NCBI RefSeq assembly: GCF_014696435.1
Contig: NZ_JACJQG010000038.1
Location: 22,278 to 86,277 of the forward strand
DNA from: Calothrix anomala FACHB-343
GTDB taxonomy: Bacteria > Cyanobacteriota > Cyanobacteriia > Cyanobacteriales > Nostocaceae
Direction: 5' to 3'
DNA: 64,000 nucleotides
Shown: in pieces, positions 7,285 to 45,310 of the stretch
Numbering within the stretch: the stretch's first letter is position 1
Layout: every line of letters starts with the position of its first letter
The notes under the pieces: model-generated
Told to the model about the DNA's origin: nothing
What the model saw: the letters and a program-made list of their open reading frames with translations, nothing else
The model's database searches: none
Program-made: the position numbers and the translations under genes

Positions 7285-7300
7285 TGCATTCAATTTCAGT

Positions 7301-16672: not shown

Positions 16673-16720
16673 TATGTCCTCTTTTGATATCAAAATTAGG
16701 GAACAATACGTTGTGATTTC

Positions 16721-23328: not shown

Positions 23329-23470
23329 TCCCGCCTCCCAATTCAATTACTAGGGTTATTCTTCAGACTGGTTTTTACACACATGTTGCGGTTGCAGTGC
23401 TACCCACAGCGTCAACTGCATTTTGCCTATGCTACAAGTTCTGAAGTGGAAGGCTACTCAATGGCTTTCT

Positions 23471-24429: not shown

Positions 24430-25896
24430 TTAAAGCACACCAATAGCATTAAATTTGTCCAGCTTTAATTTTGCCCACTGATCATTAGGCACAACCTTTG
24501 CATATGCACGTAAAAAAGCAATTGCTTTCCCTGCATCTCTCATTTGCTCGAAAACCATAACAAGACGCTTAAGGATGGCGGGATGGTTTGGGTGCTGGCG
24601 GTTCAACAATAACAAAATCTTTGCAGCATCCTCGTACCTTGCCAGTAAACCTAGCAGTGAAGCTTTCTTCAGTAGTAAATCTGGCAAATCGCCTTCAATT
24701 ACTAAACACTTTTCTACCATTCCAAAAGCTTGAGGAATCTGCCGAGTTTGTATATAGGCAGTTAAGGTGATACGACAAAGGTCGCGGCCTACAGGAGACT
24801 CAACATTTAAAAAATATGGATGTGCTTCAATATCTCTTAAGCAGTCAAAAAACCTTCCGTCTCTGTATGCTGCGGTGATCATTAGTAAGAAAGCATGGGG
24901 GTCAGAGCTACTTGCAAACTCTGAGTGCGCCACATTTTTTGCTTGAGAGTACGCTCCAGCTTCTAACAAGCGCAAAGCCTGAGTTGACCAATCTTCTGAA
25001 GGCTGTTGCCGAGGTGGCAAGATACGAATTGGTTGGTAATCGATTTGGGCACGCGCAACCCGTTTAAATGCGATCGCCATTTCTGAGAGTGATTCCCAGC
25101 GTTCTACTGGCTCAAGGGCAAGGCAACGCAAAATAAAATGCTCTAAAGCAGGCGAAACTGAGGAGTTAATCTCACGAGGACGAGGAAAAGGTGTATGCCG
25201 AGCAACTTGGCTAAGAGTATCGTGAGGCAATCGGGCTGTTACTAGATGGTAAATTAAAACACCTAAGCTGTAGATGTCTGCTTTAAACAGAGATTCAGCA
25301 CTACGTCCTTTGACACTTGAGCCAACTATTTCAGGTGCTGAGTAAAGAATTGTTCCACCATTTTCGCGGGTTCTAGCATATATATCATCAGGTAACACAC
25401 TGCATCCAAAATCAGTCAATTTGACCTGATCTCCAGAGACAAGAATATTTTGGGGTTTAATATCCCCGTGGGACATTCCCAGTCGGTGGAGATGTTCTAT
25501 TCCAGCTAAAACTTGTTGGTAAATATCGAGAATTCGCTTGTAACTAGCAACAAATCCTTGCTCTCCCTTATCCAGTAACTGAGATAAGGTCAGGCTAGGG
25601 AAATATTCCATTTCAATGACGTACCATTCACGCTCAGGAGGTACTCGTCCCATCCAAAAGACTTGAATAACGTTGGGATGAAGTTCTGCTCCCACCAAGG
25701 CTGAACCCTCGGCAAGTTCTTCATTGGTTGCACTTTGCTCTTTTGGTATTTTTACCGCCACAATTTGATTATCTTCTAGGCGTTGCGATCGCCAAACCCA
25801 ACCATAAGAACCATCGCCTAAACATTCGAGCAGTTCATAGCGATCGCCTAACCGCCGATCTGGGCGTGGAATAAAAAATTTAGATTTGCGACTCAT
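24430..25896 (-). CDS. Ser/Thr protein kinase with TPR-like tail
   Basis: Residues about 18-275 form a Hanks-type kinase: glycine loop LGDGSYGWV, Lys49 in VAVKIP, catalytic loop HGDIKPQN with Asp145 and Asn150, DFG at 162-164, and SAPE. The catalytic loop has His-Gly-Asp in place of His-Arg-Asp, so it belongs to the non-RD type, often regulated without activation-loop phosphorylation. Residues about 290-488 are helical repeats of TPR type, probably for partner binding. There is no membrane segment, so it is cytosolic. It is last in the fifteen-gene operon; its ATG overlaps the preceding stop. Kinases also occur in Pgl/BREX- and MADS-type defence systems, so a signalling role in infection sensing is likely but inferred. 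Confidence 0.9.
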   Translation of the reverse strand: MSRKSKFFIPRPDRRLGDRYELLECLGDGSYGWVWRSQRLEDNQIVAVKIPKEQSATNEELAEGSALVGAELHPNVIQVFWMGRVPPEREWYVIEMEYFPSLTLSQLLDKGEQGFVASYKRILDIYQQVLAGIEHLHRLGMSHGDIKPQNILVSGDQVKLTDFGCSVLPDDIYARTRENGGTILYSAPEIVGSSVKGRSAESLFKADIYSLGVLIYHLVTARLPHDTLSQVARHTPFPRPREINSSVSPALEHFILRCLALEPVERWESLSEMAIAFKRVARAQIDYQPIRILPPRQQPSEDWSTQALRLLEAGAYSQAKNVAHSEFASSSDPHAFLLMITAAYRDGRFFDCLRDIEAHPYFLNVESPVGRDLCRITLTAYIQTRQIPQAFGMVEKCLVIEGDLPDLLLKKASLLGLLARYEDAAKILLLLNRQHPNHPAILKRLVMVFEQMRDAGKAIAFLRAYAKVVPNDQWAKLKLDKFNAIGVL

Positions 25897-26486
25897 CAGT
25901 TTTCTCGCAGAATAATGTCCGATAGGTACAATAGATTTTTGCTGTTTTCTCTCATGACGAATTCAAGCAGTACAAACTGACCCTTATTGGCTCCTCTGAC
26001 TCTTTCTTTTGCTTGAGTTTCAAATCCTTCTTTAATAATTTTCAGCAAATTTGTGTGATTGGGGGATGAAACAGTTGTTTTTCTCCAGTAAGCCAACAAT
26101 AAGAGTTCTGCTGTCTCGCTCCAACGGTGCTGTGCCAGCAGTAGGTTTTTCGCTTTATCCTCTAATTTCCACTGTTCGTTCTTGTTGCTGTAACGCTCAA
26201 ATTCAGCAATTAAAAAAGGTGAATGACTAATTTTGTCGAACCAAACCGCATCTGAACGCACATCATCCCCAATATGAGCGTAATTGCCTTGTTTAAAAGC
26301 TGGAACCTCTGCAACTCCCACATAGCCTAGACGATTGCCCAGTAAGGCTAAAAAGGTTGTTCCTAGGCTGTGAATTGATAAACCAAAATCTGGAAATCCC
26401 CAGTTATTAGTCCAGATTGGTAGCAGTTCTTGAGCCGTTGTCAAATTTTGCAGTTCTGTCATGGTGTGTTCAAGGGAATTAGCCAT
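25896..26486 (-). CDS. Unknown protein, possible nuclease-like
   Basis: This 196-residue protein is not recognised. The segment DAVWFDKISHSPFLIAEFERY (about 79-99) has the spacing of an Asp then Glu-x-Glu seen in some PD-(D/E)XK-like nucleases, but a following Lys motif is not convincing. It has no signal or membrane segment. It overlaps the HerA gene by eight bases and the kinase gene by one base, so it is tightly coupled to both. A DNA-processing or kinase-partner role is possible. Confidence 0.6.
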   Translation of the reverse strand: MANSLEHTMTELQNLTTAQELLPIWTNNWGFPDFGLSIHSLGTTFLALLGNRLGYVGVAEVPAFKQGNYAHIGDDVRSDAVWFDKISHSPFLIAEFERYSNKNEQWKLEDKAKNLLLAQHRWSETAELLLLAYWRKTTVSSPNHTNLLKIIKEGFETQAKERVRGANKGQFVLLEFVMRENSKNLLYLSDIILREN

Positions 26487-28164
26487 TAAATCTTCCCCAG
26501 AGATTTAAAACTTCTGGTGATTGCCCACCATGAACAAGTGCCTTAGTACCAATTTTGACTAATAGTGGTGCAGGAATTGAGCGTCCGCAAATCAATGCTT
26601 CCCCAGTAGAAAGGCTGGGTAATTCCTCAATGTCAGCTTTGCTCACCATATCCGAAGTTTTAGTAATAAACCTCTGGTCATCTGGGTTTTTCAAGCGCAT
26701 CGCAATTAAAGTATTGCATTGGGACGTAACATCAGAATCTAGTTTTGAAGGACGCTGGCTAACAATGGCAAACCCCACCCCAAATTTGCGTCCCTCACTG
26801 GCAATTTTCTTAATAATGCGGTGGCTTACTGCTGCTTCTCCTGCGGGTGCAAAGTTGTGTCCTTCTTCGTAAACTAAAAAACAAGGACGAATGCGGTCTG
26901 TTTTACTTGCAGCAGCGCGGAGAATTTCACTAGAAATTAAGGCTGTAATAATTTGTTTTGCTGTATCGCTTAAACCTTGTAAGTCAATTACTACAAGTCT
27001 GCCGCGTTTATCACTGGGTCGTCCTACCATATCATATATATCTGTAGGTCGTGCTAGGGCTGCGGAGTAAAAACTTTGGGCTTCATTCAAGACCCGTGAT
27101 AGCTTCATAGAAGCAACTGCTGCACTACGACTATTAAGGGCGGTAGCCTCAGCAGAACTTAGTTCTTCCCACTCACGTAACTTTTCTATGCCATCTCCCA
27201 GGTAGTACCGTAAAGAGTTAATATCTCTAGGTTCGGTAGTTTCCTGAATTTTCCAGTAACGAATAGCTACATCAAGAACACGCTGTTGTGGCTCTGTTAA
27301 ACCAGGAAGAATTTCGGTCACATCATCCATTTCAAAGCGGTCAAATTGCAGAGCTAGTTCTTTATTTTTCCCTGCATATTTTTCCCGAAATGAAGGATTT
27401 TGGGGCGTGTAAACTACTATTCCCGCACCAGCTTCAATTAATCGCTTAAAGTTTTCTTGGATTTCGGGAATAGTTTTGCGATCGCGGGGGTCATCAAGAT
27501 TGTTAAAGTCAAGGTTGAATTGCAAATTGCCACCTTGCAAAGCACGGCCATATTCGCCGTGAGGGTCAAATACAACAACTGTGCCATTATTAAGGGTGAC
27601 AATACGCTCAATAATCCGGCCGACCGTGTAAGATTTACCAGAACCTGTCATAGCTAAGACTGCCAGATGTTCTGTAACCAGGCGGTTAACGTCTAAATAT
27701 ACAGGAACAATATTCTCGCCAGATTCATAACCTACTAAGTTGCCTATATGTAAACTGGTTTGTTCATCAAATTCGTAGAATGAGCTAAGAAATTGATAGT
27801 CTACAGTTTCCACTTTTGCACCAGGGTCAAGCGCACGGCGAGGGATTTTGATTTGACCAGTGTATGAGTCTTTGTAACCAACAAGTTCTAGTTTGGCAGC
27901 TACTCGTTCTCCTGTAATTTGTGCGCCAGGTAGTAGCTCTAAATCTGTGAGCGATTGCCCCATCTCTGAGTTATAGAGAACATTGGTGCGGATAATACTA
28001 TTAATTCTCCCTAAAACATTAATTTCTGGCTCCTCTTGGCATTCTTGGTGACGGATGCGAACAAATTCGCCGCGTCTACCAGCAAAGGATGAGGAAAGAA
28101 TCATTGTTAGGTTGTTGGGATCACCAGTGTTACCTACTAATTTCCCTAGAATTTGATGTTTCAT
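26479..28164 (-). CDS. herA: HerA-type hexameric DNA translocase
   Basis: This 561-residue ATPase has an N-terminal HAS-barrel-like region (1-150), Walker A MTGSGKS (172-178) and Walker B FLVYEEGHNF (428-437), with an RPSKLD motif after it. This is the HerA/FtsK-like arrangement. HerA pumps DNA through a hexameric ring and works with the nuclease NurA, which is encoded directly upstream here (18-bp gap). In archaea the pair resects DNA ends; in bacteria HerA often belongs to defence modules. The gene is embedded in an operon with methylase and kinase genes, so a restriction role is likely. Confidence 0.9.
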   Translation of the reverse strand: MKHQILGKLVGNTGDPNNLTMILSSSFAGRRGEFVRIRHQECQEEPEINVLGRINSIIRTNVLYNSEMGQSLTDLELLPGAQITGERVAAKLELVGYKDSYTGQIKIPRRALDPGAKVETVDYQFLSSFYEFDEQTSLHIGNLVGYESGENIVPVYLDVNRLVTEHLAVLAMTGSGKSYTVGRIIERIVTLNNGTVVVFDPHGEYGRALQGGNLQFNLDFNNLDDPRDRKTIPEIQENFKRLIEAGAGIVVYTPQNPSFREKYAGKNKELALQFDRFEMDDVTEILPGLTEPQQRVLDVAIRYWKIQETTEPRDINSLRYYLGDGIEKLREWEELSSAEATALNSRSAAVASMKLSRVLNEAQSFYSAALARPTDIYDMVGRPSDKRGRLVVIDLQGLSDTAKQIITALISSEILRAAASKTDRIRPCFLVYEEGHNFAPAGEAAVSHRIIKKIASEGRKFGVGFAIVSQRPSKLDSDVTSQCNTLIAMRLKNPDDQRFITKTSDMVSKADIEELPSLSTGEALICGRSIPAPLLVKIGTKALVHGGQSPEVLNLWGRFNG

Positions 28165-28182
28165 TGCTATTTGTGCAGATAA

Positions 28183-29346
28183 TTAAACAAAATCATCTAA
28201 ATCTGATAGCCATAAATCCTCAACTTCACGCCGTTTAATTTCTACTTGTAGGCTTTGGCTGTAATATTCGAGGAAATTATCTAAAGCGTTTTGTTCTCGT
28301 TCTGCCAACTGGATTGGTAAAGGTGCGGCTTGTGACCCACCAGTTAGTGTGAGTGCCATGATTTGAGAACAAATTCTGTCTAAGTTTTTTTGGTTCCAGT
28401 GAGGTTCATCCCCAATTAACTGGAGTAATTGCGGAGTATTTGTTTGTGCCGCTTTGAAATGATAACCAAGCACTCCTAATGAAGTGACATCGCTGGGTTC
28501 CATGCGAGGTGTTTGTACACTCATACGGAAAGCTGCGGTGCGCGTGTAACTGTTGAGAATGCCGTAAATAAAACGTCTTTCACCAATGCCTGCGATCGCG
28601 TCTTCTGATCCGATAATTTGATGAGTTAGATTTACATCAACTCCCTCATTATTCAGTATGTGTTTGCGTCCCTCGGCTGTGCGTAAGTCTTGTTGGGCAA
28701 TATGAACTATGGCACCGTAACGCTCTGATGCTAAACCCACAACAGCAGTACCATTAGGATTCCAAGGCTGAAGTTTTTCGCGGTGCTTTGACCAGAAATT
28801 AGAAATTGCCTGAATTGCACTATCAAAAGCAGCGCGATAACTTGCGTAACTTTCTGCTTCTCGTAGCGGAACCATGCTCCGGTCTAGCACCAGAGGACAA
28901 TCGAGCAAAATCAGGTCATAGGGATTTTCCGATCGCATTGCCCGGTCTGCCATCTCGTAAGCCTGACGCACACCAATAAGCTGCAACCGTTTTGACTGAT
29001 TTTCATAGTTGATATCATCTAGTTCGCAAGTGCTATCCTGACCAACTGTGGATATTACATTGTCATCAACAGCTAAATCGACACGAACCGCAGCCGCAGC
29101 ATATAGAAAACCCCCGATGGTTTTTGTAGTTGTGGCTTTAGTAGATATTCCAGCTACGCGAACATTTAAGGGATTAGGGCGGTCAACTGAACGTACTAAG
29201 CCTGCTTGGAAGAATAGGGGGGCGACACGTTCAATATCTCTAATTTGCTTTAATATGCGACCAACGGTTCCTGGCAGGTTAATCTGTGATTGAATAGCCA
29301 GAGTTTGTACCAGCGATCGCCCCTGTGTGTTAAATGTTAGTGTCAT
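28183..29346 (-). CDS. nurA: NurA-domain nuclease
   Basis: This 387-residue protein has the NurA layout: an early acidic motif (VRVDLAVDD, about 89-97), a second one (YDLILLDCPLVLDRS, about 143-157) and a late helical region. NurA is an Mn-dependent 5'-3' exonuclease and endonuclease stimulated by HerA. The HerA gene follows after 18 bp, and the upstream gene overlaps by four bases, so all are one transcript. It is the best candidate for the DNA-degrading effector of this operon. NurA assignment rests on motifs and the HerA neighbour. Confidence 0.8.
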   Translation of the reverse strand: MTLTFNTQGRSLVQTLAIQSQINLPGTVGRILKQIRDIERVAPLFFQAGLVRSVDRPNPLNVRVAGISTKATTTKTIGGFLYAAAAVRVDLAVDDNVISTVGQDSTCELDDINYENQSKRLQLIGVRQAYEMADRAMRSENPYDLILLDCPLVLDRSMVPLREAESYASYRAAFDSAIQAISNFWSKHREKLQPWNPNGTAVVGLASERYGAIVHIAQQDLRTAEGRKHILNNEGVDVNLTHQIIGSEDAIAGIGERRFIYGILNSYTRTAAFRMSVQTPRMEPSDVTSLGVLGYHFKAAQTNTPQLLQLIGDEPHWNQKNLDRICSQIMALTLTGGSQAAPLPIQLAEREQNALDNFLEYYSQSLQVEIKRREVEDLWLSDLDDFV

Positions 29347-30167
29347 CTGGCTAATGCCTCCAGTTCTTCTGCATAAGCTAAATAGGGACTTTGACGAATT
29401 ACATCTATGCCGCTTTCTGTTAACTGAACTCCCTTCACCAACCCCTGAGATTGCAAATCGCCTAAACAGGTTTGGGCTGTGTTTCTATCTAGAGAAAAAA
29501 TAGTTGAACTTTGTAATGCCGTTAGTGCTGTTGCTGCATCAACAAATTTTTGTGAGACTAAGTGAAGCATGACTATAACGTGTTCTTCTTTTAGTTGAAA
29601 TGAAGTTTGGTCTACAGCTTGGTTCTCAACCGGTTGACCAGCCAAACTGTGTAATGTCTCTAGCCATTTTTGCAATTCTTGTTCTTTGTCAAGAACGGCT
29701 AAAGACCATATTGGTAGACAGGTGATAGCAAAAATTCCAGAGTGGGGATGCTTGCGATAGTAAGCAGTATTGATGCTCATGTCTTCCCAAGCACCACCAA
29801 TTTCACTGGCAATTTGTAATTGTCCTTGCAGCTCATAATCTACTTCTGGAGCTAGCGCTTTAACTAGCGGTGAATCTTGTTGTGGTTTGACACCGGAACG
29901 CCGCCTTATTTCCCAGTTACAGGGAATAGAAGATTTTTTGGTTTCAAAGGGAGGAATTAACAATAATGTTCTTCCTGGTTCCTGTGACCAGTTGTACCAG
30001 TCTTTTTCTTGTGATTCAGCAGCTTCTTGAAAATCAATGCCAAACATTAGGCACAAACCAAAAGATGGTAGTTGATTTTCAACAAGTTGAGCAGCAATCA
30101 CATTTTGTAAAATGCGCTGGCGGCGATGGGTTGCTAGAGTCCCGACTAACCAGATGCTGGTATTCAT
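29343..30167 (-). CDS. Unknown protein with C-terminal winged-helix-like region
   Basis: This 274-residue protein is not recognised. The C-terminal 70 residues (LSSTIFSLDRNTAQTCLGDLQSQGLVKG-type pattern) look like a winged helix. The N-terminus (MNTSIWLVGTLATHRRQRILQNVIAAQL) has a hydrophobic strand followed by a basic helix. It sits between the large ATPase and NurA, with four-base overlaps on both sides, and is preceded by GGAGG inside the ATPase gene. An adaptor between ATPase and nuclease is a reasonable guess only. Confidence 0.65.
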   Translation of the reverse strand: MNTSIWLVGTLATHRRQRILQNVIAAQLVENQLPSFGLCLMFGIDFQEAAESQEKDWYNWSQEPGRTLLLIPPFETKKSSIPCNWEIRRRSGVKPQQDSPLVKALAPEVDYELQGQLQIASEIGGAWEDMSINTAYYRKHPHSGIFAITCLPIWSLAVLDKEQELQKWLETLHSLAGQPVENQAVDQTSFQLKEEHVIVMLHLVSQKFVDAATALTALQSSTIFSLDRNTAQTCLGDLQSQGLVKGVQLTESGIDVIRQSPYLAYAEELEALAR

Positions 30168-34492: not shown

Positions 34493-34563
34493 ACTTTTCA
34501 ATTCATTACCAATAGATTTTGTAATTAGTTAAGCCAGTATTTTTTATGTTTAATTTATTATTT

Positions 34564-35832
34564 TTATTCTCCAATATTAGTATTTTCATCCATAATAAAA
34601 TCAATGGTTTCTCTAATCTCAGGTGCAGCATTGATTATCTTTATTTTTTTATATGCTGCCATACCATATTGACGAATCGGAGTAGCTAATAAAGCATTCA
34701 AAAAGCTATGAGGGGCAGAAATAATATCATCAAAGTCTATTGTTAAAGACTTTCCCTCAGCAATTGCAGGCATAAGTTTTTCATCTCTAATACGAATTGC
34801 TGTCATCTTATCCTCAGCATATTTACCAAAATAATTACGTACATTGATATAAAAATTTGTCTTGGCTTCGATATTAGAAGCTTCGGAAAGCTCTTGCGTG
34901 GCTGCTGAACGAAACTCAGACATCATCCTTTGTAGATTGATATCCTGCGAAATACCTAGTTTAATAGTGACGTAGACTAATGTACCTGGCCAGTATGATT
35001 CTATTTTTCTTCCCGTTACATCAGTTGGTGAAATATGTACAACTCCATCACCAGAAACAATGTGCATATCGGCATGAAGTTTACGAATAATATTACTTGA
35101 AATATATAAGCCAATACCAGCATTATTTTTAGCTTGATATGGGTTGTTTTTAAAAAAAGTACCGGAAACTTGAGGCTTCAAAGCTTTTTTAATAGCTGAT
35201 ACATTATCATCAATTTCCGGATAAACTTGCCGGAGATGTTTTTTAATACCAATTCCAAGGTCAGCTATAATAAAAGATATTTCATCTTTTTCTCTATACC
35301 AAGAAAACTGTATTATTGATGGAATGTCGGGGTTGTGTCCATGTTCTAAAGTATTGTATAGTAATTCTGAGAGAACATAACGTAGAGTTTTTTCATACTC
35401 AACATCAAATCCATGAGTATAGCTTTCAGCTTTTTCTAAAGCTGTTCTAAAATCTAAGCTATTCCTAATGGCGAAAAGAGGCTTAGAATTGTGACTAATA
35501 AAATTATCTTCAGGTGATTCAAAAACATAAAATAAACCATTCGCACCCATCATCCGCCACATTTTTGATGCGCCTTTACTCTGCCATTTATCTACATTGT
35601 CATAATAAAATTTCACCTTACATCCATTAGTTCTTAAGTGCCAAACATAAAGTACAAATAATGACAAAGCTTGATAATTAGCTCTTAAACACTGGCTAAA
35701 GTCTATTAAAACATCTTGATTTTTTAACTTCCAGTCAAATATAGATAAAACTCTATTAAAGTCATATGTCCCATGATAAGTAAATGCCAAACTATAAGGA
35801 AGATTAATGATAAATTCTTCTGATTTATACAT
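34564..35832 (-). CDS. STAS-GHKL ATPase-STAS protein
   Basis: In this 422-residue protein, residues 1-110 look like a STAS-like domain (VLIDFSQCLRANYQALSLF). Residues about 130-295 are a GHKL ATPase with N-box ELLYNTLEHG (156-165), G1 DLGIG (191-195) and G2 NAGIGLY (237-243). Residues about 320-415 resemble the STAS-like DUF4325 family. No dimerisation/phosphoacceptor helix is present, so it is not an ordinary sensor kinase and is closer to anti-sigma-factor kinases. It lies two bases after the preceding stop, in a defence operon that also holds a Ser/Thr kinase. A partner-switch regulator is the likely role. Confidence 0.8.
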   Translation of the reverse strand: MYKSEEFIINLPYSLAFTYHGTYDFNRVLSIFDWKLKNQDVLIDFSQCLRANYQALSLFVLYVWHLRTNGCKVKFYYDNVDKWQSKGASKMWRMMGANGLFYVFESPEDNFISHNSKPLFAIRNSLDFRTALEKAESYTHGFDVEYEKTLRYVLSELLYNTLEHGHNPDIPSIIQFSWYREKDEISFIIADLGIGIKKHLRQVYPEIDDNVSAIKKALKPQVSGTFFKNNPYQAKNNAGIGLYISSNIIRKLHADMHIVSGDGVVHISPTDVTGRKIESYWPGTLVYVTIKLGISQDINLQRMMSEFRSAATQELSEASNIEAKTNFYINVRNYFGKYAEDKMTAIRIRDEKLMPAIAEGKSLTIDFDDIISAPHSFLNALLATPIRQYGMAAYKKIKIINAAPEIRETIDFIMDENTNIGE

Positions 35833-35834
35833 AG

Positions 35835-36893
35835 TTAATTAATAGGTTTAAAAACTTGAAATAAAGTGTCAAATTCTGGGTGAATACTCCAGTTAACTAA
35901 TTTGCGTTGTCTGTCGCCAAATAGTCCTCTGCCATGTCTTGCTTGCCCTGGTTCGGCGGCGTGTAGTTCAATTGCGCCTTTTGTCAAAGCTGCACCCAGC
36001 AATTCATCCATCCATTTTTCAAAGCTACTGCCAGTTTCTAAAACTGAGGCGATCGCAGTTTTTTCAGCCAGCGATCGCATAACAGGTTCAACGGGCGAAA
36101 ATCCGCGAATATCGGCGTAGGTGCTGGTAGCAGACTGAAGTTGAGTGCTGGGAGAATTAGCGAATGGCGATAAAATAGCTATTTCTGGTTGTTGTGCTAA
36201 ATATGACGGTAAAATTAATTGCCCATTTCGCAGCCAACCCATGCTATCAAGTAGATATAACGGTGCTTTTAATGATGTTAGAGATAATTTATTTTCTGTA
36301 AATTTAAGATTTATGTTGTAGCTATTATTGCTTTTAATTTTAGTATTTTTACTTTGGTTGTTTTGTAGCAGAGGGCTAGAAGCTGAAGTCAGCCAAGCAC
36401 CAAGGCTGGCGTTTTCTATATCTTTTGTCCAATTTGAGGATGTAGAATTTACCTGAATGGGTTTGTGCCAATGAATCAGTCGCCAATCGCCTAAAGTCAG
36501 GTGCAGCAGTAGAACACGTAACCAAACACTCCATTGCAATAAATGAACGGCTAGGGCTTCGAGGGTTTTTTGGGTGTCGTTGTCGCGCCAGAGGTTGAGG
36601 AGTAATTCGGCTTGTTCAGATAATTTCCAGTTTTTACTGTCGGGGATTTGTTCTAAAAAGCCCACACCAAGGATTTTGGTGGGTTTATTTGTCCTGTCCA
36701 ACCCAAAAAGACCGGGAGTGCTGCGGCGGGAAATTGTATTGGTAAGATGTTGTTCCCAGGTTGACCAGTAACCGGAGAATGTGGTTGTTTCTGACTTTGC
36801 CAGAATAGCTAATGCCCGTAACCAAGCTTCTGGGTCGCGGGGTTCTGACCAGAAGGAGGGAGGCACAAGTAGGATTGACATTTTCTGGCTCAT
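35835..36893 (-). CDS. Unknown protein of defence operon
   Basis: This 352-residue protein is not recognised. It has tryptophan-rich helical stretches in the first half (AVHLLQWSVWLRVLLLHLTLGDWRLIHW, about 134-161) and a low-complexity asparagine-rich patch. The C-terminus ends in DRQRKLVNWSIHPEFDTLFQV. The RQR...IHPEF ending recurs in the 407-residue product of the gene just upstream, so the two may be distant relatives or share a binding motif. Its ATG overlaps the upstream stop by four bases. Confidence 0.65.
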   Translation of the reverse strand: MSQKMSILLVPPSFWSEPRDPEAWLRALAILAKSETTTFSGYWSTWEQHLTNTISRRSTPGLFGLDRTNKPTKILGVGFLEQIPDSKNWKLSEQAELLLNLWRDNDTQKTLEALAVHLLQWSVWLRVLLLHLTLGDWRLIHWHKPIQVNSTSSNWTKDIENASLGAWLTSASSPLLQNNQSKNTKIKSNNSYNINLKFTENKLSLTSLKAPLYLLDSMGWLRNGQLILPSYLAQQPEIAILSPFANSPSTQLQSATSTYADIRGFSPVEPVMRSLAEKTAIASVLETGSSFEKWMDELLGAALTKGAIELHAAEPGQARHGRGLFGDRQRKLVNWSIHPEFDTLFQVFKPIN

Positions 36894-38113
36894 GTGCTAA
36901 TAACCTCCAACAGCGCAGTATTGCCAGTAGTAGCAAGTTTTTCTTTCACCCAGCGATCGCAGGTATTGCGAATCGCAGAGGTGATATGATTACTCAGGCG
37001 AATAAAAGATTTACTGCCTAAGACGCGATAGCAGCTATCAGAAAACTCCGGGTGAATGACGTAACCAGAACGTTGTCTACTTGTACCAGTTTGGAAACGC
37101 CAAACTTTCTGATGCAATAAGTTTTTAATCAAGGGTGCAAGTTGGTTATCAAGTTCTGTTGTGGATAAGTTGGGTGTAATTATGTCAACTCCTAGCTGAT
37201 TTAAGACCAGCAGTAGTAGTTCAGCAAGGCTACCGCAAATCACCTCTTCCCCAAGCGGCGTAGTAATGACTACTAGCACTTGGGTAGGTTCGTAAAATTG
37301 GGAAAGTTGGCTTGATTCAAGTTCTAGAGATAATTTGCCAGAGATGCGTTCTGCTGCCCAGGCTTCTTGTGTAAAAACAATCTGTGCTAAAAGAAACAAC
37401 CAAGGGCGGTAAAGTACCCAGCGCATGATAGCTTGGTCTGGGGTGTCTTCGGTTTTGATTTCCGCAGGGGTTAATTCTCCGCATTCACCAAATAGCACCG
37501 AGGAATTTTGAGTGAGTAATTTAGGGCTTTCCGCAGTGGGTAAACGCAGCAACCGTCCCCGCACCCAATTAATCCCAGGGTTGAGGGGGTTGATATCTGG
37601 GAGAGAATTTGCAGGTGTTCCCTGTTTTCCTTCTACTAAGGAGGCGGTAGCACCGAAGACGCGCAGCAATTTTGGTGTAGCTTGGGCTTGTTCGGCTGGG
37701 ACTTCAAAAATGATGCGTTCTATTTCGGAGTATTTGGTAGCGGTGAGGGCTGCTTGGGGCAATAATTTCAGTAATGTTTCAGCAGCTTGTCCCAAGGTGG
37801 TGATAGCTTCGCAAAGTCCTTGAGTATCCCGTCTTGTACCTAGTTCTTGCAGTCGGGCGGCGATAATTTTACCCCAGGCTTGGCGGATTTCTGGTTCGCA
37901 ACTGAGGAGTGCGGCGACTGTTTCCGAGAGGCTGGGTAAGGTTTGCAATAATTTAACAGTAGTGGGGGTAGCGACAGCGCGGTTAGTATTGGCGGATGTT
38001 GTCCACAGTCCCAGAGTTTCACCTGTTTTCAAGGGGCTAATGTCTGTAGTGGGGGCTTCGCCTGTTGTCAGAAATTCTTCTAGGGCGCGGATGGTAGAAG
38101 TGGAAACATTCAT
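36890..38113 (-). CDS. Unknown protein of defence operon
   Basis: This 407-residue protein is largely helical and not recognised. The first half is alanine- and leucine-rich (LLKLLPQAALTATKYSEIERI region). A middle region has a YRPWLFLLAQIVF stretch, and the C-terminal part holds SRQRSGYVIHPEFSDSCYRV, similar to the end of the following gene's product. It lies ten bases after the toxin gene and is coupled to the 352-residue gene by ATGA. No membrane anchor is certain. Confidence 0.65.
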   Translation of the reverse strand: MNVSTSTIRALEEFLTTGEAPTTDISPLKTGETLGLWTTSANTNRAVATPTTVKLLQTLPSLSETVAALLSCEPEIRQAWGKIIAARLQELGTRRDTQGLCEAITTLGQAAETLLKLLPQAALTATKYSEIERIIFEVPAEQAQATPKLLRVFGATASLVEGKQGTPANSLPDINPLNPGINWVRGRLLRLPTAESPKLLTQNSSVLFGECGELTPAEIKTEDTPDQAIMRWVLYRPWLFLLAQIVFTQEAWAAERISGKLSLELESSQLSQFYEPTQVLVVITTPLGEEVICGSLAELLLLVLNQLGVDIITPNLSTTELDNQLAPLIKNLLHQKVWRFQTGTSRQRSGYVIHPEFSDSCYRVLGSKSFIRLSNHITSAIRNTCDRWVKEKLATTGNTALLEVIST

Positions 38114-38122
38114 GTTCTCAAG

Positions 38123-38551
38123 TTAGATGGGGTTGGGATTCCAAAACTCAAGGTCGCTAAAGCTGCCAAAGTCTCGATAATTAATTGTCCATACAGGACA
38201 TTTACGTTTACGCGCAGCCCAAATCACCGTTGCATCTTCTAAGCTTCCTTGCCAATTGGGAATAGTGGTTAGTAAGGAGCAGATTTCGAGTAAGTCTACT
38301 TCGTTAATGGGGATGAGGTGTAAGCTTTCTACCATGATGTTAAGACTGGCTTGGGCTGTCGTGGGGTTGGTTGTGTGTAGCAACCATTTATACACTTCAA
38401 ACAAAATAGGAATGGGAATATAAACTCTGACATTTGCTTGAGTCAGTTGTTCAAAACCGCTTGTGCATTCTGCGTGTTGGGGGTCTTTGGCGTATAACAG
38501 GGCGATTAAGGGGCCAGCATCAATTACAAGTTGGGAAAGGGGCGTTAGCAT
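38123..38551 (-). CDS. PIN-domain toxin (VapC-like)
   Basis: This 142-residue PIN-domain protein has LVIDAGPLIALL with Asp11, a conserved Glu in LFEVYKWL, and an acidic pair in SLEDATVIWAA followed by TINYRDF. PIN domains are Mg-dependent ribonucleases, and VapC toxins cleave tRNA or rRNA. The gene overlaps the upstream RHH antitoxin gene by seven bases, the usual VapBC order. It sits inside the defence operon between an HsdS gene and unknown genes. It may stabilise the island or act as an abortive effector. Confidence 0.85.
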   Translation of the reverse strand: MLTPLSQLVIDAGPLIALLYAKDPQHAECTSGFEQLTQANVRVYIPIPILFEVYKWLLHTTNPTTAQASLNIMVESLHLIPINEVDLLEICSLLTTIPNWQGSLEDATVIWAARKRKCPVWTINYRDFGSFSDLEFWNPNPI

Positions 38552-38772
38552 GGATTAATGATATCTATCGAGTCTTCAGGGTTATTGCTGGCATTTGTGG
38601 GAGATTCGCTGACAATTCCGGCTAAGTTAAGCAGTTTAGACAAGTTTTTGTTAGTCAGTTTTTCTTCTAGTGCTTCTTGAATGAGGCTATCTAAGGTTTG
38701 GTTGGGATTATCTTTTAAGTATTGCTCTAGTTGTTGGGCTAGGGTATCAGGTAGGTTGATTGTGCATTTCAT
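38545..38772 (-). CDS. Ribbon-helix-helix antitoxin (VapB-like)
   Basis: The 75-residue product starts MKCTINLPDTLAQQLEQYL, a ribbon-helix-helix strand and helix. A helix with a conserved leucine pattern (LDSLIQEALEEKL) and an acidic tail that could wrap the toxin follow. It is directly followed by the PIN-domain toxin with a seven-base overlap. Together they form a type II toxin-antitoxin pair. A 59-bp gap from the upstream HsdS gene may hold its own promoter. Confidence 0.8.
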   Translation of the reverse strand: MKCTINLPDTLAQQLEQYLKDNPNQTLDSLIQEALEEKLTNKNLSKLLNLAGIVSESPTNASNNPEDSIDIINPC

Positions 38773-38831
38773 AGATTTGGGGGATAGGGAATGGGTGATT
38801 TTTCTGTGATTCTCTGTTTTGAATTTAAAAT

Positions 38832-40361
38832 TTATTCGCCTTGTTCATCAGCGTATAATTGGTCAATTGTTTGATAGATAAGGTCTAAGTCGGGAAATAA
38901 GGGTGGTTCGTCTTTGATGTCGTAGCCTTTGCGGGTGAGGCGTGAGAGGATGGCTTTGTCTGGTTCTCTGTCGCCTTTTTGTAGTGCTTCTTGGGCTATT
39001 TTGAGTTCGTCTTCGGTAAGTTTGCCTTCAATGAGGGCTTCGACTAGGAGTTTAGCGGCGGTGGTGAGACATATTGACAAATCTTCTCCTATGAACTTGA
39101 TTAACCACCGTTTACCTTGTTCCTCAACTATCTCGTCTGGATATTGGGGAACTAATGTAGAAATTGCAATATCATCATCAATTGCTGGATAAGAACCGCC
39201 TGCGTTCCATCGCATTAGCTGCTGTGTAGCAGCATCAGAACGAAGCCAACAGTGATAAAAAACTGTTTCGGCTTTTGATTTGAACCTTAGTACAGAAAAG
39301 CCAGTAGAAGCAACTATGGGAAAATCTAAATCTACATCTGGCACTAAGGCAATATTTTTGCGGTTTGGGCGAACAGTTGATACTAATACATCCCAAGGTT
39401 TAACTAATAATTTTGCACGAGAAGGAGCCTCTTTTGTAAATAATATTTTTGGCGCAATTGAACCATTACTTAAATTAATTTCTCCAATCTCAAGGTAGTA
39501 AAAAATATGAGAACTTTTATTCCATGTCTTTTTAACTTGATTAGCTAATTTAGAAAGAGGTATAGCTCTATTTCTATACAATACTTCTTTAAGATTTATG
39601 TGGGCAGGATCATAAAAAGCTGTATCCAATCTTTCGGGATGAATGATTTCTGATTTTGTTCTATATGAACGATACATTCCAACTTTTTCCTCATTCCAAT
39701 AAGGAATTGAGAAAAACTGTTTAACTTCTGTTTCTATTTTCTGCGATCGCTCTCTCAACCTCTCCGCCAACCTCACCTTATCCCCTATGTAGGTTTCAGC
39801 TTGTTTATCAACTTTAGGTAACAGGACAGTCTTAGTATCACTTACTCCTAAATACTGAATAATACTTCCAAGAGAGCGTCTTACAAGCTGCCGCCTTCCA
39901 TATCCTGAAAATAAAAAAGCAGCGATAAAATCAATATCAAATTTGCCGTTAGGTCGTAAAGCAATGATGTGTTGAGTAATATTAGCTTTTGGTATATTTT
40001 CAGGTATTTTACAAATTTTTTCTCCTACACTAGCTTTTACAATTAGTAAATCACCTGGTAGAACTTCTGAAGCTTTTAATTCTGCATGAACAGACGGATG
40101 AAGATAAGCCATACCGCTAAAGTCAACTTGCATAGCCCCAATATTACTGATTCGGAAAAGTGGTATTATTCCTTTATCCAAATACAGTGAACTAGGAAGC
40201 TTTGAGCCAAAAGGTCCTACAAAAAAACGTCCTGCTTTACCAAGATATTCTGATCCAAATTCCTCTAAACGATCCTCATCGCTAAGGTATTGAGGATGAT
40301 AGTATTCTGGATCAAGTCGTTCAGTTACTAAGCGACGGGCTTTTACTCGATTTTTGTGCAT
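38832..40361 (-). CDS. Type I-like DNA specificity subunit (HsdS)
   Basis: The product of about 509 residues has two target-recognition halves. Each starts with an ERLDPEYYHPQY- or ERLDTAFYDPAH-like line and ends near helices, as in HsdS-type or BREX-type recognition proteins. It should direct the methylase to a bipartite DNA site. ATG 40361 lies eight bases after GAGGGG and is preferred to GTG 40370. It follows the methylase gene directly. No HsdR gene is present in the window, so cutting must be by another protein. Confidence 0.82.
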   Translation of the reverse strand: MHKNRVKARRLVTERLDPEYYHPQYLSDEDRLEEFGSEYLGKAGRFFVGPFGSKLPSSLYLDKGIIPLFRISNIGAMQVDFSGMAYLHPSVHAELKASEVLPGDLLIVKASVGEKICKIPENIPKANITQHIIALRPNGKFDIDFIAAFLFSGYGRRQLVRRSLGSIIQYLGVSDTKTVLLPKVDKQAETYIGDKVRLAERLRERSQKIETEVKQFFSIPYWNEEKVGMYRSYRTKSEIIHPERLDTAFYDPAHINLKEVLYRNRAIPLSKLANQVKKTWNKSSHIFYYLEIGEINLSNGSIAPKILFTKEAPSRAKLLVKPWDVLVSTVRPNRKNIALVPDVDLDFPIVASTGFSVLRFKSKAETVFYHCWLRSDAATQQLMRWNAGGSYPAIDDDIAISTLVPQYPDEIVEEQGKRWLIKFIGEDLSICLTTAAKLLVEALIEGKLTEDELKIAQEALQKGDREPDKAILSRLTRKGYDIKDEPPLFPDLDLIYQTIDQLYADEQGE

Positions 40362-40362
40362 T

Positions 40363-42393
40363 CTATTCACCCCTCACATAAGCCCCAACAATAGCCGCCA
40401 AATCATTTGTTACACCAGTACTGTAATCTTCCACATTATTCTTAACCAAATACCCCAAAGTATCTGCCACCGCCATAAACACATCCGGCTGTGGTACATC
40501 CTGAAAACGCTGTGGATCTTGTTCCCTTGCTTGACGTTTTTGTAAATATAAAATACTCGTTTTCGCACCAGTTCCCGACAACTTAAACGTATCCGATGGC
40601 AAACTAATTACCGCCTTAACTATCGCCTTCCCACCATGAAATTGACCCGTCGCCTCATCTTTTGTACCCATAATGTACTCACGCACATATTTGTCCCCAG
40701 AGTTACAAAGCACCCCATCAGGTAATACGATTAATAACCTTCCTCCCGGTTTCAGCATTTGTAAACAACGGTCAATAAATAAAACTGCTGGGTCAATACT
40801 CGCAGATACAGGCTTCCATAAACCCTTACTATCCGGCTTTCCACCCATCGCCAACCCAGACACAGAAGGCTCATAAGTATAAGTTCCCGCTTTCTTGGGA
40901 TTCTCTACTAAATCAGAGCGAAACAGTTGTAAAATCTTTTCTCTCGCTTCCTCATAACTTTTTTTAGCCTTTTCCTGACCCTTGCTAAACTTCGGCGTAC
41001 CAAAAGGCGGGTTAGTACAAATCAAGTCATAGCTACAGGGTTTAAATTGGGCAGTAATTAACGAGTCATAGGTACGAAAAATTTTTGCTTTTGGCGCACC
41101 CAACAACGCCATATTTACCCGCGCCAACGTCACCATATCTTGGGAATTATCCGCACCAATAAAACTGTACTGGCACATATCCTGAAACAGCTTGTCACGA
41201 CGCACATCTTCAGAAGTTTCCTTACCCAATATTTCTAGTAACGCCCGTTCTAAATAGCCCATCGCCACTGCACCAAACCCGTAACTTCCACAAGCAGGGT
41301 CACAAAAGCGAAAAAGTGGCTTCCCCTCTTCATCCCGCGCTGTTAAAAGTTCCGGCGTTTCTTCTTTAATATCGTGAAAAGCAATAGCCAACATCGCCTG
41401 TTTTACAGGTGCAGGAGTCAAATATACTCCCATCCCTTCCGGTTTAAACTTAGCCCGCAGAAATACATCTAACAACCGCCCCAGCACATCCGCCGCAATA
41501 TCTGCTAATGTACCTTGGGTTTTCACCACCTGATCATAATTATTAGTAACAGCCCCCAAATTTTGAATTAAATCTAGTAAGGTTTCATAGTTGCGGGGTT
41601 GTCCTAGTCGCAGGTGAGTTTGTTCATCAAAAATTGCGTGAGACTCGCCATTATCATCTGTCACCACATAGTCAGCGTGAGATTTAAAGTGGTCAAATGC
41701 CGCCTGAATTTGTGCTACTGCTTTTTTACCCTGTTTTTTAATGTAAGCAACGTTAAAAATTTGATTTAAATTCAGCGTTTGGTTGTCGTGCTGAAATTCT
41801 AAATTAGAACCTTCATGATGCAAGCGGAAAGATTCTAAAAACAGGATTTTTGTAACTTCCCGGATAATGTCATTAGAACTAGAAATGTTATCCCGAACAT
41901 TTTGATAAACCTGTTCATGAAACTCATCAAACCCCCGCATTAAACGGTCATACATCTTCATTGACCACCGATAAGTCGGGTCAGCCTTGATGCGTTTATA
42001 TTCGTTAATTTCTTTGAGTGTCGGGAGACGGTCAATTTCGTAAGCCGGAAAGCTTAATTCAAAGCATGTTTTATGTTCCCCATCACTAACCACAGCAAAC
42101 TGGGGAAACTCGTCTTCCTTAGTATCAGCAGGTGGTAAGGTATAGGATTTTTGTTGAACGTATTCTGCATTTGCTTTATCCCAGTTTCCCGGTGCTAATG
42201 CTAATAGGAAAATACGCGGTGTTTCCACCCCCTGATACTGTCCCCAAACAATAGCTGCGGCTTCCTCATCCGCCGAACTTGTCAGCGTGATTAACTTGTC
42301 AAAACCAGCAGATTTATATTGTTGGCACAGAGTCGCTAATATCTCTTGCACACCTGAAGATTCTTGTTTTCCTTCCGTTTTTGTCTTTGCCAT
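40363..42393 (-). CDS. N6-adenine DNA methyltransferase (HsdM-like)
   Basis: This 676-residue class I N6-adenine methylase has the cofactor site FCDPACGSYGFG (363-374) and the catalytic NPPF (461-464). The N-terminal 300 residues are a helical HsdM-type region and the C-terminal part ends in NDLAAIVGAYVRG. It transfers methyl groups from S-adenosylmethionine to adenine, presumably to mark self DNA. Its stop is followed within two bases by the start of an HsdS-type gene, and a second HsdS-like gene lies upstream. It is longer than usual for stand-alone HsdM. Confidence 0.93.
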   Translation of the reverse strand: MAKTKTEGKQESSGVQEILATLCQQYKSAGFDKLITLTSSADEEAAAIVWGQYQGVETPRIFLLALAPGNWDKANAEYVQQKSYTLPPADTKEDEFPQFAVVSDGEHKTCFELSFPAYEIDRLPTLKEINEYKRIKADPTYRWSMKMYDRLMRGFDEFHEQVYQNVRDNISSSNDIIREVTKILFLESFRLHHEGSNLEFQHDNQTLNLNQIFNVAYIKKQGKKAVAQIQAAFDHFKSHADYVVTDDNGESHAIFDEQTHLRLGQPRNYETLLDLIQNLGAVTNNYDQVVKTQGTLADIAADVLGRLLDVFLRAKFKPEGMGVYLTPAPVKQAMLAIAFHDIKEETPELLTARDEEGKPLFRFCDPACGSYGFGAVAMGYLERALLEILGKETSEDVRRDKLFQDMCQYSFIGADNSQDMVTLARVNMALLGAPKAKIFRTYDSLITAQFKPCSYDLICTNPPFGTPKFSKGQEKAKKSYEEAREKILQLFRSDLVENPKKAGTYTYEPSVSGLAMGGKPDSKGLWKPVSASIDPAVLFIDRCLQMLKPGGRLLIVLPDGVLCNSGDKYVREYIMGTKDEATGQFHGGKAIVKAVISLPSDTFKLSGTGAKTSILYLQKRQAREQDPQRFQDVPQPDVFMAVADTLGYLVKNNVEDYSTGVTNDLAAIVGAYVRGE

Positions 42394-42411
42394 ATCCCTG
42401 ATTTTTTTAAA

Positions 42412-42810
42412 TTAACCATTGTAGCGAATGAGTCCAGGCCCGAAAACTTCCAACGCAGGAGTTTCTTTTGCCAAAGCTTTGATTTGTGCCTCTGTAGTAA
42501 TAAACTTTCCTGGTAACTTGCGGCGAATTTCCGCAGCCGATATTGGTTTACTAGTATTAGAATTGACCACTTGAATAATCGCTTCTACCAGTTCTTCTTT
42601 CTCAGTTCGTTTACCTAACTTCACCAGTGGTAAATCCTGTGATATAGTGTCAAATTCAACCCCATCCATACAAGCAAGGAAAAGGTGAACCTGTGCCTCT
42701 GACCAATTGCTACCAGAATTTTTAGCCAGTTCACATACCTTAGTTAGCGGTAAGTTTTCGCGCTTTAATGCAGTGGTGATTTCTTCATAAATTGCTGGTG
42801 TCATACCCAT
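42412..42810 (-). CDS. Small protein with winged-helix-like end, next to methylase
   Basis: This 132-residue protein is not recognised. The last 60 residues (SAAEIRRKLPGKFITTEAQIKALAKE) look like a winged helix and the N-terminus is helical. It lies between the second HsdS-like gene and the methylase gene, 18 bp before the latter. It could be a regulator or a small subunit of the methylase complex. Confidence 0.65.
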   Translation of the reverse strand: MGMTPAIYEEITTALKRENLPLTKVCELAKNSGSNWSEAQVHLFLACMDGVEFDTISQDLPLVKLGKRTEKEELVEAIIQVVNSNTSKPISAAEIRRKLPGKFITTEAQIKALAKETPALEVFGPGLIRYNG

Positions 42811-42868
42811 CTAAAACCCTGGTAATAGAGTAAACGCCCCATTCCCTGTTCCCCGTTCCCCGTTCCCT

Positions 42869-44266
42869 TCATTGATGAACTTCCTCAAACAAAGTCTGTG
42901 CATAATTCCAAATAACTTGCCATTGTTCGTTTAACTCTCGCTGTCGCTGGTGATGGCGACGTAATAATTTTTCCCATCGCTGGCGGAGTTCTAAAGGTAC
43001 ATTGGGAACAGTCAAGCGCGGAATATTTGCAGGATGGGTAAACTGTTGTACAGTTCCCATTGCCATTGCTTCTAACTGAGTACGAATAGCAGTAGTATTT
43101 AACACCAATGCCCAAGCCCCCGGCGTTTCCTTAAACCGTAACCGTTCTAAATGGTCAGTAACATAAATTTTGGTAGACAGTGCTTCATTAATAAAAGCCA
43201 CACGCGGGTTACTCACCAAAGTTGACAGCAATACTTCCCCAGAGGTGAGAGGTTGACGATAAACACGATTAGGTGCAGGCGATGATCGCTCATTTTCTGT
43301 TTCCTCTGGTTGTGAGAAACTTAAATCTGTCCGAATATCGCTTAACCGCAAATAACGCCCCTGTTGCAGAACATCACCATGTAGGCGACTTCTCTCAATC
43401 TCATCTACTGAAAGCAGTTTTGCTAAAGAAACCCATCCTAAATGCTGTTTTAACTGGTGCAGTCGATGAGAAAGCTGGACATGATTAGGCAATAAAGAAT
43501 CATCTATAGAATCAGCCGGAAAAAACCGCCCAGTCGATAATGAATTATTAGAAACTGGCTGCGACTCATCTAATTGTTTCTCTTCATCAGCCACATAAGC
43601 TTCAACTTCAGCCAGCAAGCGCATTAGGGACTCGTTATTCTCCAAAATATCGTCGTTACAATCCCACACTTTCCCCTGAAGTAAACTTGCGTCCTCTATT
43701 GGCGGTAAAGGGAGATGCAGATTAGACAGCACCTTTAAACTGACACGAGGCAAAGTAGCTGCCCCTTGGCGATGAAGTAGATAAGCCTCATAAGGTTTTT
43801 GATTCAAACAAAGTGCCACCCACACAGCAAAAGGATATTTAACACCCCTAATCAAAATGCAGTTTGCATCGACTGGGTGACGGGGTAGCCGAGAAGTTAC
43901 CACCGCCGCCCGCACAGGTGGAATTTTATTCAGCACCACATCCCCTGGTTGAACACACCATTCCGCCTCAATTGTTGGTTTTTCCCATTGTTCAGCATTC
44001 AGGCGAAACTGCATACAATCCAAGTTTGCCTGACGGTAGATAGGGGTTTTCTCAATCCTGCGATCATAAGTATCCGTCCAAGATTGTGTACTTACCCGCC
44101 AACCTTCAAGACAGTTACCAATCTCGCCAATTGCCTTACGGGAAATCCGCCCACGAAAAATCTGTGCGGCTGTGCAGTATAATTCAGCACTCCAGCAATC
44201 TTCTTCATGCAGGATTTCCCATGTAATTCGAGTATGGGGTGGTGCTTTCAATTTCCTTACCTCCAC
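42869..44266 (-). CDS. Second DNA specificity-like subunit
   Basis: This product of about 465 residues resembles an HsdS-type recognition protein. There are two similar halves, each with a region around VQPGDVVLNKIPPVRAAVV or LTSGEVLLSTLVSNPRVAFI and helical spacers, the usual TRD-plus-coil plan. The frame opens at GTG 44266; a GGAGGT in the first codons could instead serve TTG 44251, so the start is uncertain. It appears to be the first gene of the fifteen-gene operon. Two different S-like proteins with one methylase suggest either two target sites or a paired recognition complex. Confidence 0.75.
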   Translation of the reverse strand: MEVRKLKAPPHTRITWEILHEEDCWSAELYCTAAQIFRGRISRKAIGEIGNCLEGWRVSTQSWTDTYDRRIEKTPIYRQANLDCMQFRLNAEQWEKPTIEAEWCVQPGDVVLNKIPPVRAAVVTSRLPRHPVDANCILIRGVKYPFAVWVALCLNQKPYEAYLLHRQGAATLPRVSLKVLSNLHLPLPPIEDASLLQGKVWDCNDDILENNESLMRLLAEVEAYVADEEKQLDESQPVSNNSLSTGRFFPADSIDDSLLPNHVQLSHRLHQLKQHLGWVSLAKLLSVDEIERSRLHGDVLQQGRYLRLSDIRTDLSFSQPEETENERSSPAPNRVYRQPLTSGEVLLSTLVSNPRVAFINEALSTKIYVTDHLERLRFKETPGAWALVLNTTAIRTQLEAMAMGTVQQFTHPANIPRLTVPNVPLELRQRWEKLLRRHHQRQRELNEQWQVIWNYAQTLFEEVHQ

Positions 44267-45241: not shown

Positions 45242-45307
45242 GTTTCCAACTTTATTCTCTAGTTTCCAAGTTTATTATTCAGTTTCCGACTTTATTCTCG
45301 TTATACA
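45242..45307 (+). mobile_element. Candidate right end of the Tn7-like element
   Basis: Three direct repeats start at 45242, 45262 and 45282, exactly 20 bp apart, with consensus GTTTCCRASTTTATT. They are followed by TTATACA ending at 45307, so from outside the end reads TGTATAA followed by repeats. Tn7-like ends start with TGT and carry TnsB-binding repeats of about this size. The end lies four bases from the ruvC stop codon; Tn7 itself inserts just after a conserved gene. No matching inverted copy was found in the window, so the assignment is tentative. Confidence 0.45.
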
Positions 45308-45310
45308 AGA

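Follow-up and report, generated by a model that had tools for sequence, protein, structure and literature searches.

The 64,000-nucleotide stretch of the Calothrix anomala FACHB-343 genome analysed here, hereafter the window, contains a block of about twelve genes with a HerA motor. We read this block as an undescribed, horizontally mobile, methylation-associated defence system. We infer the role in defence and give the reading as a whole a probability of roughly 0.55. The block lies among 15 open reading frames (ORFs) at 24430-44266, all on the minus strand. The original prediction, made from the letters of the window, had described a single fifteen-gene operon of leftward genes with overlapping or nearly overlapping ends. 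The arrangement was confirmed, with spacing from an 8-base overlap to a 62-base gap, while a comparison of 38 loci reduced the unit to twelve genes and placed ORF75, ORF142 and the GHKL protein (GHKL422) outside it. The proposal of a new or variant defence system, matching neither MADS nor Pgl/BREX, is kept in corrected form: carriage by a Tn7-like element had been missed, passengers had been counted as parts, and the protein named as the nuclease is probably not the best candidate for that role.

The 15 proteins were run against three curated profile sets (PADLOC 2.0.0, Pfam and NCBIfam 20.0); the PADLOC matches for HsdM, HsdS and the kinase are the best 25 of 28, 54 and 35, respectively. Together, Pfam, PADLOC and NCBIfam bore out the predicted HsdM, two S-like proteins, HerA, Ser/Thr kinase and GHKL protein. 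For ORF132, ORF407, ORF352, ORF274, ORF196 and the giant ATPase, nothing exceeded any cut-off of the three sets. As predicted, no gene-by-gene match to a named system was found with the MADS, BREX, DISARM and type I profiles of these sets.

To find relatives, GTDB 220, with each species represented by a single genome, was scanned for peptide patterns taken from the giant ATPase. This yielded the 38 loci; since the search relied on patterns, the number is a lower bound. Their ORFs were searched with iterated hidden Markov models (HMMs) made from every window gene, and the gene order was mapped. For the tally of long loci we kept the 32 that exceeded 19.9 kb and left out six shorter ones; the ATPase is present in them by construction, and the S column counts any S-type match in the locus. 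All ten core genes had HMM matches in 30 of the 32 long loci, the exceptions being L015, without ORF132, and L037, without several core genes. Some counted copies appear broken: L015 has a truncated M of 123 amino acids, L010 has a split ATPase, and in L020 both the ATPase and HerA are split. The recurring order was S - ORF132 - M - S - ORF407 - (ORF352) - ATPase - ORF274 - NurA - HerA - ORF196 - kinase. This order, on whose conservation the original prediction depended, was present in Cyanobacteria, Acidobacteria, Alpha- and Gammaproteobacteria, Verrucomicrobia and Firmicutes. In the three most distant loci (L036-L038), an S-like gene stands immediately after NurA.

Across all 38 loci, HMM matches were obtained for ORF352 in 13, for ORF75 in one, and for ORF142 and the GHKL protein in none; the last three were therefore rejected as parts of the machine. 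Twelve of the fifteen genes form a real unit, and the VapBC-like pair (ORF75 and ORF142) and the GHKL protein are local passengers. The predicted toxin-antitoxin pair survives as a VapC/PIN-like match below the cut-off, outside the unit; ORF75 matched no family above cut-off in Pfam or NCBIfam. The slot after S gathers passengers in other loci as well: DUF1016/YhcG in L001 and L034, DUF29, DUF433 and DUF5615 in L004, and DUF4058 in L006. In a Clostridium copy (L035, 16010-18085), DarT-like and macro-domain genes are inserted between NurA and HerA. Toxin-antitoxin-like pairs enter the operon at differing places. The GHKL protein sits between ORF352 and the giant ATPase in this locus only. Predicted as STAS-GHKL-STAS, it has a GHKL domain and a C-terminal, STAS-like DUF4325, while Pfam found no N-terminal STAS domain; its residues 149-407 weakly matched DrmA in PADLOC (7.5e-07).

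The core genes are inherited together. With the longest row kept per locus, the identity of ORF132, M, ORF407, ORF274, NurA, HerA, ORF196 and the kinase tracked that of the ATPase, with rho of 0.77-0.94. The block is rare in its own order and phylum: a search of 148 genomes from the order found the ATPase in its own genome and, weakly, in one other, and we discarded this second match (29% over 164 residues, E 1.7e-4), which is probably spurious. Among 386 genomes of the phylum, the NurA profile matched its own genome alone. A quick ATPase tree placed Acidobacteria among Cyanobacteria, with forks of 93-100% support, and the five Firmicutes copies, from four families, were nearly identical. This suggests horizontal transfer of the block between lineages; the tree program gave a long-branch warning, so the case for transfer is no more than suggestive, and it is strongest in the Firmicutes. 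For two annotated phage/plasmid collections, in which the ATPase found no match, carriage by phages or plasmids was rejected. A relative is encoded on three IMG/VR contigs.

HsdM matched Pfam N6_Mtase with 68.3 bits against a cut-off of 20.4 and PADLOC MTase_I at 3.6e-250, and its NPPF motif was kept in all 34 rows of the family alignment. The PADLOC Specificity_I profile matched both S-like proteins, which are homologous to each other (hhalign, 100% probability). An S-like gene lies upstream of M in 22 of the 38 relatives, and this upstream S is inherited along with the core. The downstream S tracked the ATPase least, with rho of 0.39 in a position-defined and 0.54 in a family-defined set. 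For pairwise comparison we defined S by position, excluded pairs with ATPase identity of at least 95% and treated 15 close pairs separately. At ATPase identities of 60-95%, median identity was 79% for M (n=26), 53% for the upstream S (n=17) and 27% for the downstream S (n=27, range 21-81%).

The close pairs revealed where the change occurs. Five Firmicutes operons, from Tepidanaerobacter (two), Herbinix, Clostridium and a Thermoanaerobacteraceae bin, share 97-98% identity in the ATPase, 96.5-99% in M and 89-97% in the upstream S, and 26-40% in the downstream S. In two of the Firmicutes pairs, DNA identity per 150-column window was 0.79-1.0 outside S and about 0.42-0.78 within it, and it recovered after S in both. 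Within the downstream S of the five operons, two blocks differ, and the central and C-terminal blocks are 92% and 91% identical; type I S subunits are laid out in this way. S diverged likewise in a Methylobacter pair (ATPase 94%, S 27%) and between two Legionella species (97%, 22%), while two Psychrobacter pairs (ATPase 97%) retained S at 57% and 69%. In the Firmicutes, the S gene adjoining M has been exchanged at its two target-recognition domains between neighbours that are 89-99% identical. HsdS thus appears to be a functional specificity subunit with two domains, on which there is strong pressure to diversify. The higher and steadier identity of the upstream S-like protein points to a different, more constant task.

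HerA matched Pfam DUF87 with 150.6 bits against a cut-off of 23.2. It carries TGSGKS at residue 173, and TGSGKS or SGSGKS was found in 32 of 36 rows. The predicted model of NurA387 gave a clear structural match to the NurA fold. By sequence, NurA387 itself matched no NurA profile, its own profile found nothing in the Protein Data Bank (PDB), and hhalign gave no match to 11 canonical cyanobacterial NurA sequences; a Pfam scan of 32 members of the family yielded one weak NurA match (E 0.037). The 11 canonical sequences were picked from 24 loci by the DGS pattern, so that the motif is present in them by selection. In the NurA387 alignment, column 65 is without an acidic residue in 32 of 32 sequences and Gly66 is invariant, the residue correspondence having been inferred from strand order. 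NurA387 probably lacks the motif-I Asp of the first DGS motif, and it is possible that it acts as a DNA-guiding collar of HerA. In Thermococcus, a HerA-NurA(D49A) complex is reported to have no nuclease activity (PMC12977600). The host also encodes a canonical NurA (G000:C72:86249-87067, 154.6 bits), so the NurA-like protein of the operon is not the housekeeping copy.

In ORF196, residues E60, D79, E95, E97 and K111 are invariant in 28 of 28 sequences. From its predicted model, ORF196 looks like a PD-(D/E)XK-like fold and thus a candidate nuclease; a Pfam scan of the 28 homologues gave no match. It looks like a better nuclease candidate than NurA387. Hence the translocase of the predicted translocase-nuclease pair stands, as does the NurA fold of its partner, but the cutting activity is better sought in ORF196.

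The giant ATPase, predicted at 1443 residues, has 1445 and contains the expected P-loop. The WGxGKSR-type motif occurred in 36 of 39 rows and LDELE in 28 of 39; in Pfam it had a KAP match only, below threshold. The kinase family has an HGDIKPQN-type loop in 34 of 35 rows and DFG in all 35. ORF352 has a GQxxHGxGL motif near its C-terminus, invariant in the 12 aligned sequences, and ORF274 gave weak DUF4350 and winged-helix-like matches only. ORF132 had no Pfam match above cut-off and no PADLOC or NCBIfam match at E 0.01. Searched against the PDB, the profiles of ORF196, the giant ATPase, ORF274 and ORF407 found only chance-level, coiled-coil or winged-helix-like matches. Alignments A1-A7 hold 12-32 sequences each, with some near-identical rows omitted by hand.

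A Tn7-like transposon of 48.5 kb, with both ends recognisable and a 5-bp duplication, carries the block. Running from TGTATGG to TATACA, the element measures 48,516 bases and is bordered by AGATT on either side. The left end falls beyond the window, at C77:19069 (window position -3208), and three 18-base repeats at 45242-45299 recur inverted 48.4 kb away with 1-2 mismatches. The insertion point is the 3' terminus of ruvC (45311-45802); the element has two TnsD proteins, and ruvC may be the attachment site for one of them. From ruvC to the left-flank gene there are 48.8 kb here, about 550 bases in the sister genome G783, about 590 in G787 and 2.2 kb in G789; in the other five genus-mates the two are distant or on separate contigs. 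In G783, the right flank is present, and the 60 bases to each side of the site contain AGATT just once; for the left flank, an alignment of 320 bases scored 555, against a shuffled maximum of 35. The element is absent from the site in this genome. About 210 bases of G783 (L079, C1:6928300-6929000) between the left-flank alignment and AGATT correspond to nothing at the element's left end in the window genome. The junction is therefore not simply the two flanks joined; the stretch is a second small rearrangement at the site. Tn7-like elements are reported to carry defence genes (PMC8649781).

Other genes of the window are recorded here beside the features in Table 1. Two further products of the Tn7-like element are TPR-CHAT proteins (4009-7293 and 9782-13030) and a third has a caspase domain (7361-9652); they may form a second conflict module, which would act through proteases. 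A short plus-strand ORF at 44532-44792 has a translation resembling the end of a broken superfamily-1 helicase, by our own reading a cargo remnant. Two adjacent ORFs of 425 amino acids each (59130-60407 and 60742-62019) are possibly a tandem duplication.

Table 1. Features of the operon and of its Tn7-like carrier, in window positions (aa, amino acids).
Feature	Position	Strand	Basis or occurrence
Upstream S-like protein, 465 aa	42869..44266	-	PADLOC Specificity_I matches; hhalign to downstream S
ORF132, small conserved core protein	42412..42810	-	in 30/32 long loci
HsdM-like N6-adenine DNA methyltransferase, 676 aa	40363..42393	-	Pfam N6_Mtase above cut-off; NPPF motif
HsdS, diversifying specificity subunit, 512 aa	38832..40370	-	PADLOC Specificity_I 4.4e-49
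ORF75, antitoxin-like by position and size (our own reading), local passenger	38545..38772	-	
ORF142, VapC/PIN-like, local passenger	38123..38551	-	NCBIfam Mtu_PIN_fam E 0.0018, below cut-off
ORF407, core protein	36890..38113	-	in 31/32 long loci
ORF352, core in a subset of loci	35835..36893	-	in 13/38 loci
GHKL ATPase with DUF4325 domain (GHKL422, 422 aa)	34564..35832	-	Pfam HATPase_c and DUF4325 above cut-off
Giant P-loop ATPase, 1445 aa	30164..34501	-	Walker A WGVGKSR at 69, LDELE at 223
ORF274, core protein	29343..30167	-	in 31/32 long loci
NurA-fold protein NurA387, 387 aa	28183..29346	-	structural match (predicted model)
HerA-type DNA translocase, 561 aa	26479..28164	-	Pfam DUF87 9.1e-44
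ORF196, PD-(D/E)XK-like candidate nuclease	25896..26486	-	
Ser/Thr protein kinase with C-terminal TPR repeats, 488 aa	24430..25896	-	Pfam Pkinase above cut-off
ORF236, transposon gene, outside the conserved system	23471..24181	-	in 0/38 loci
TnsA	22486..23346	-	Pfam TnsA N and C domains above cut-off
TnsB	20294..22501	-	Pfam Mu-transpos_C above cut-off; PADLOC TnsB
TnsC-like AAA ATPase	18706..20343	-	Pfam AAA_22 and TniB above cut-off
First TnsD/TniQ	16721..18709	-	Pfam TnsD and TniQ above cut-off
Second TnsD/TniQ	14747..16693	-	Pfam TnsD and TniQ above cut-off
Right end of Tn7-like element: three end repeats, terminal ACA at 45305-45307	45242..45307		
Target-site duplication AGATT, 3' end of ruvC	45308..45312		second copy at left end

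Gene content, conserved order, co-inheritance, S exchange, the folds of NurA387 and ORF196 (as predicted models) and Tn7-like carriage were obtained by computation, and around them we propose the following scheme. HsdM and the exchangeable HsdS would methylate the host chromosome at sites set by the two swappable recognition domains, which would allow self to be told from non-self. The detection of unmarked DNA would fall to the S subunits acting jointly with the giant ATPase and with ORF407, ORF352, ORF274 and ORF132. Detection would then license a HerA hexamer with a NurA-fold collar to pump the foreign DNA, and ORF196, the PD-(D/E)XK protein, would do most of the cutting. The kinase may either restrain the destructive part or switch it on. 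Events in this order would give anti-phage activity. A fuller version, in which the exchangeable S is coupled through the giant ATPase and the kinase to HerA, the NurA ring is a dead collar, a separate PD-(D/E)XK protein cuts, and the sealed block has spread between phyla with mainly the S recognition domains changing, is put forward tentatively.

The block could instead be a type I restriction-modification system in which a HerA-NurA motor has replaced HsdR, with the ATPase, the kinase and the small genes as regulators. The likeness is real: HsdM carries the NPP(F/Y) motif, and HsdS has two exchangeable recognition domains and two conserved blocks. The predicted absence of HsdR also fits, as no type I HsdR model was among the PADLOC and Pfam matches listed for the 15 proteins; in the maps of the relatives, the sole unassigned gene above 600 amino acids inside the block encodes 739 in L037, the most incomplete locus. 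DUF1016/YhcG, which often accompanies type I loci, occupies the slot after S in two relatives. However, a second conserved S-like protein, a kinase, a giant ATPase, HerA, NurA and a PD-(D/E)XK-like protein distinguish the block from type I loci, and its ten genes are inherited as a single block across distant phyla, so that the extra genes look obligatory. The probable loss of the catalytic Asp from NurA387 also speaks against a HerA-NurA substitute for HsdR, and we consider this explanation unlikely. The kinase and the weak winged-helix-like parts would suit a methylation-linked module of gene regulation or chromosome maintenance with no part in defence. Yet exchange of recognition domains, patchy distribution, near-identical copies across families, toxin-antitoxin-like passengers and Tn7-like carriage are typical of defence loci, and this is the least probable of the explanations weighed here.

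A divergent MADS would keep the same M-S-kinase logic, with the other genes changed beyond recognition. PADLOC matches to mad2 (5.6e-16), mad5 (2.5e-18), mad6 (1.8e-45) and mad8 (1.3e-30) favour it, as do NCBIfam matches to MADS2, MADS5 and MADS6, but the latter scored 112/720, 69.9/400 and 143.7/460 bits and missed the equivalog cut-offs 3.2- to 6.4-fold. To obtain true MADS loci, we searched with mad7 of PADLOC, a model that gave 3 matches in 298 genomes of the genus of G001; the two strong ones, Pseudomonas loci L044 and L045, served as references. The third (L046, E 5e-77) had no M, S or kinase homologue better than E 0.046 and was thus not used as a MADS locus. The MADS locus order is a methyltransferase, proteins of 445 and 235 amino acids, S, a protein of 1402, mad7 (557) and a protein of 1852; the mad gene names were assigned by order. 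The window profiles for M (7e-32), S (7e-55) and the Ser/Thr kinase (4e-52) matched these loci, with the upstream-S profile matching the same gene as the downstream-S profile, and the HerA profile weakly matched a HerA-like P-loop protein (E 5e-05 to 8e-05). The profiles of ORF132, ORF407, ORF352, the giant ATPase, ORF274, NurA and ORF196 reached at best E 0.18 there. A kinase protein of 1402 amino acids and a last gene of 1852 (L044) contrast with a 488-amino-acid kinase, HerA, NurA and ORF196 in the window. No mad7 was among the PADLOC matches listed for the 15 window proteins, and none was found in the nine genomes searched that carry the system, a scan in which the controls were also blank, while the same model matched 3/298 genomes elsewhere. 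With cut-offs missed, mad7 lacking and seven core profiles unmatched, membership of MADS was rejected, and a divergent MADS appears improbable. By profile comparison, the window system and MADS share an M-S-kinase module and differ in the remainder.

The proposed kind of system, methylation-associated multi-gene defence, is already known; the gene set appears to be new. It was undescribed among the open-licence PMC matches listed; preprints and most subscription journals lay outside that search, and a description elsewhere is possible. The block of ten to twelve genes includes at least six without a curated family name and keeps its order across five phyla. Should it prove to act in defence, it would stand beside BREX, DISARM and MADS. 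The HerA motor and the PD-(D/E)XK candidate make its effector step directly testable. A 2026 review calls the restriction step of BREX, DISARM and MADS unknown, while its table gives DNA cleavage for DISARM (PMC12904381). The near-identical operons, whose main difference is in the S recognition domains, are a natural experiment on what these domains read. The reading with a dead NurA collar, if true, would amount to a new restriction architecture, neither type I restriction-modification nor BREX, DISARM or MADS.

BREX/Pgl systems mark self by adenine methylation, and the kinase weakly matches PglW (5.8e-14; NCBIfam 51.6 of 990 bits), but no PglZ or BrxC/PglY was among the PADLOC and NCBIfam matches listed. 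The likeness to DISARM is confined to the passenger GHKL protein with its DrmA match; DrmB, DrmC and the DUF1998 helicase were absent from the matches listed. Given the known composition of BREX and DISARM, membership of both was rejected for want of PglZ, BrxC/PglY, DrmB or DrmC among these matches. With archaeal and Deinococcus HerA-NurA the block shares the DUF87 family of HerA and the NurA fold, and it differs in the motif-I Asp apparently missing from NurA387. The structural fold matches of NurA387 include TdpAB, the HerA-NurA-like complex of a DNA phosphorothioation system. There was no Dnd-type synthesis gene among the matches listed for the block proteins; in this block an adenine methyltransferase would do the modification, and there are many more core genes. 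As another modification-linked HerA-NurA pair, Tdp would, by analogy, be the nearest working model for the system described here.

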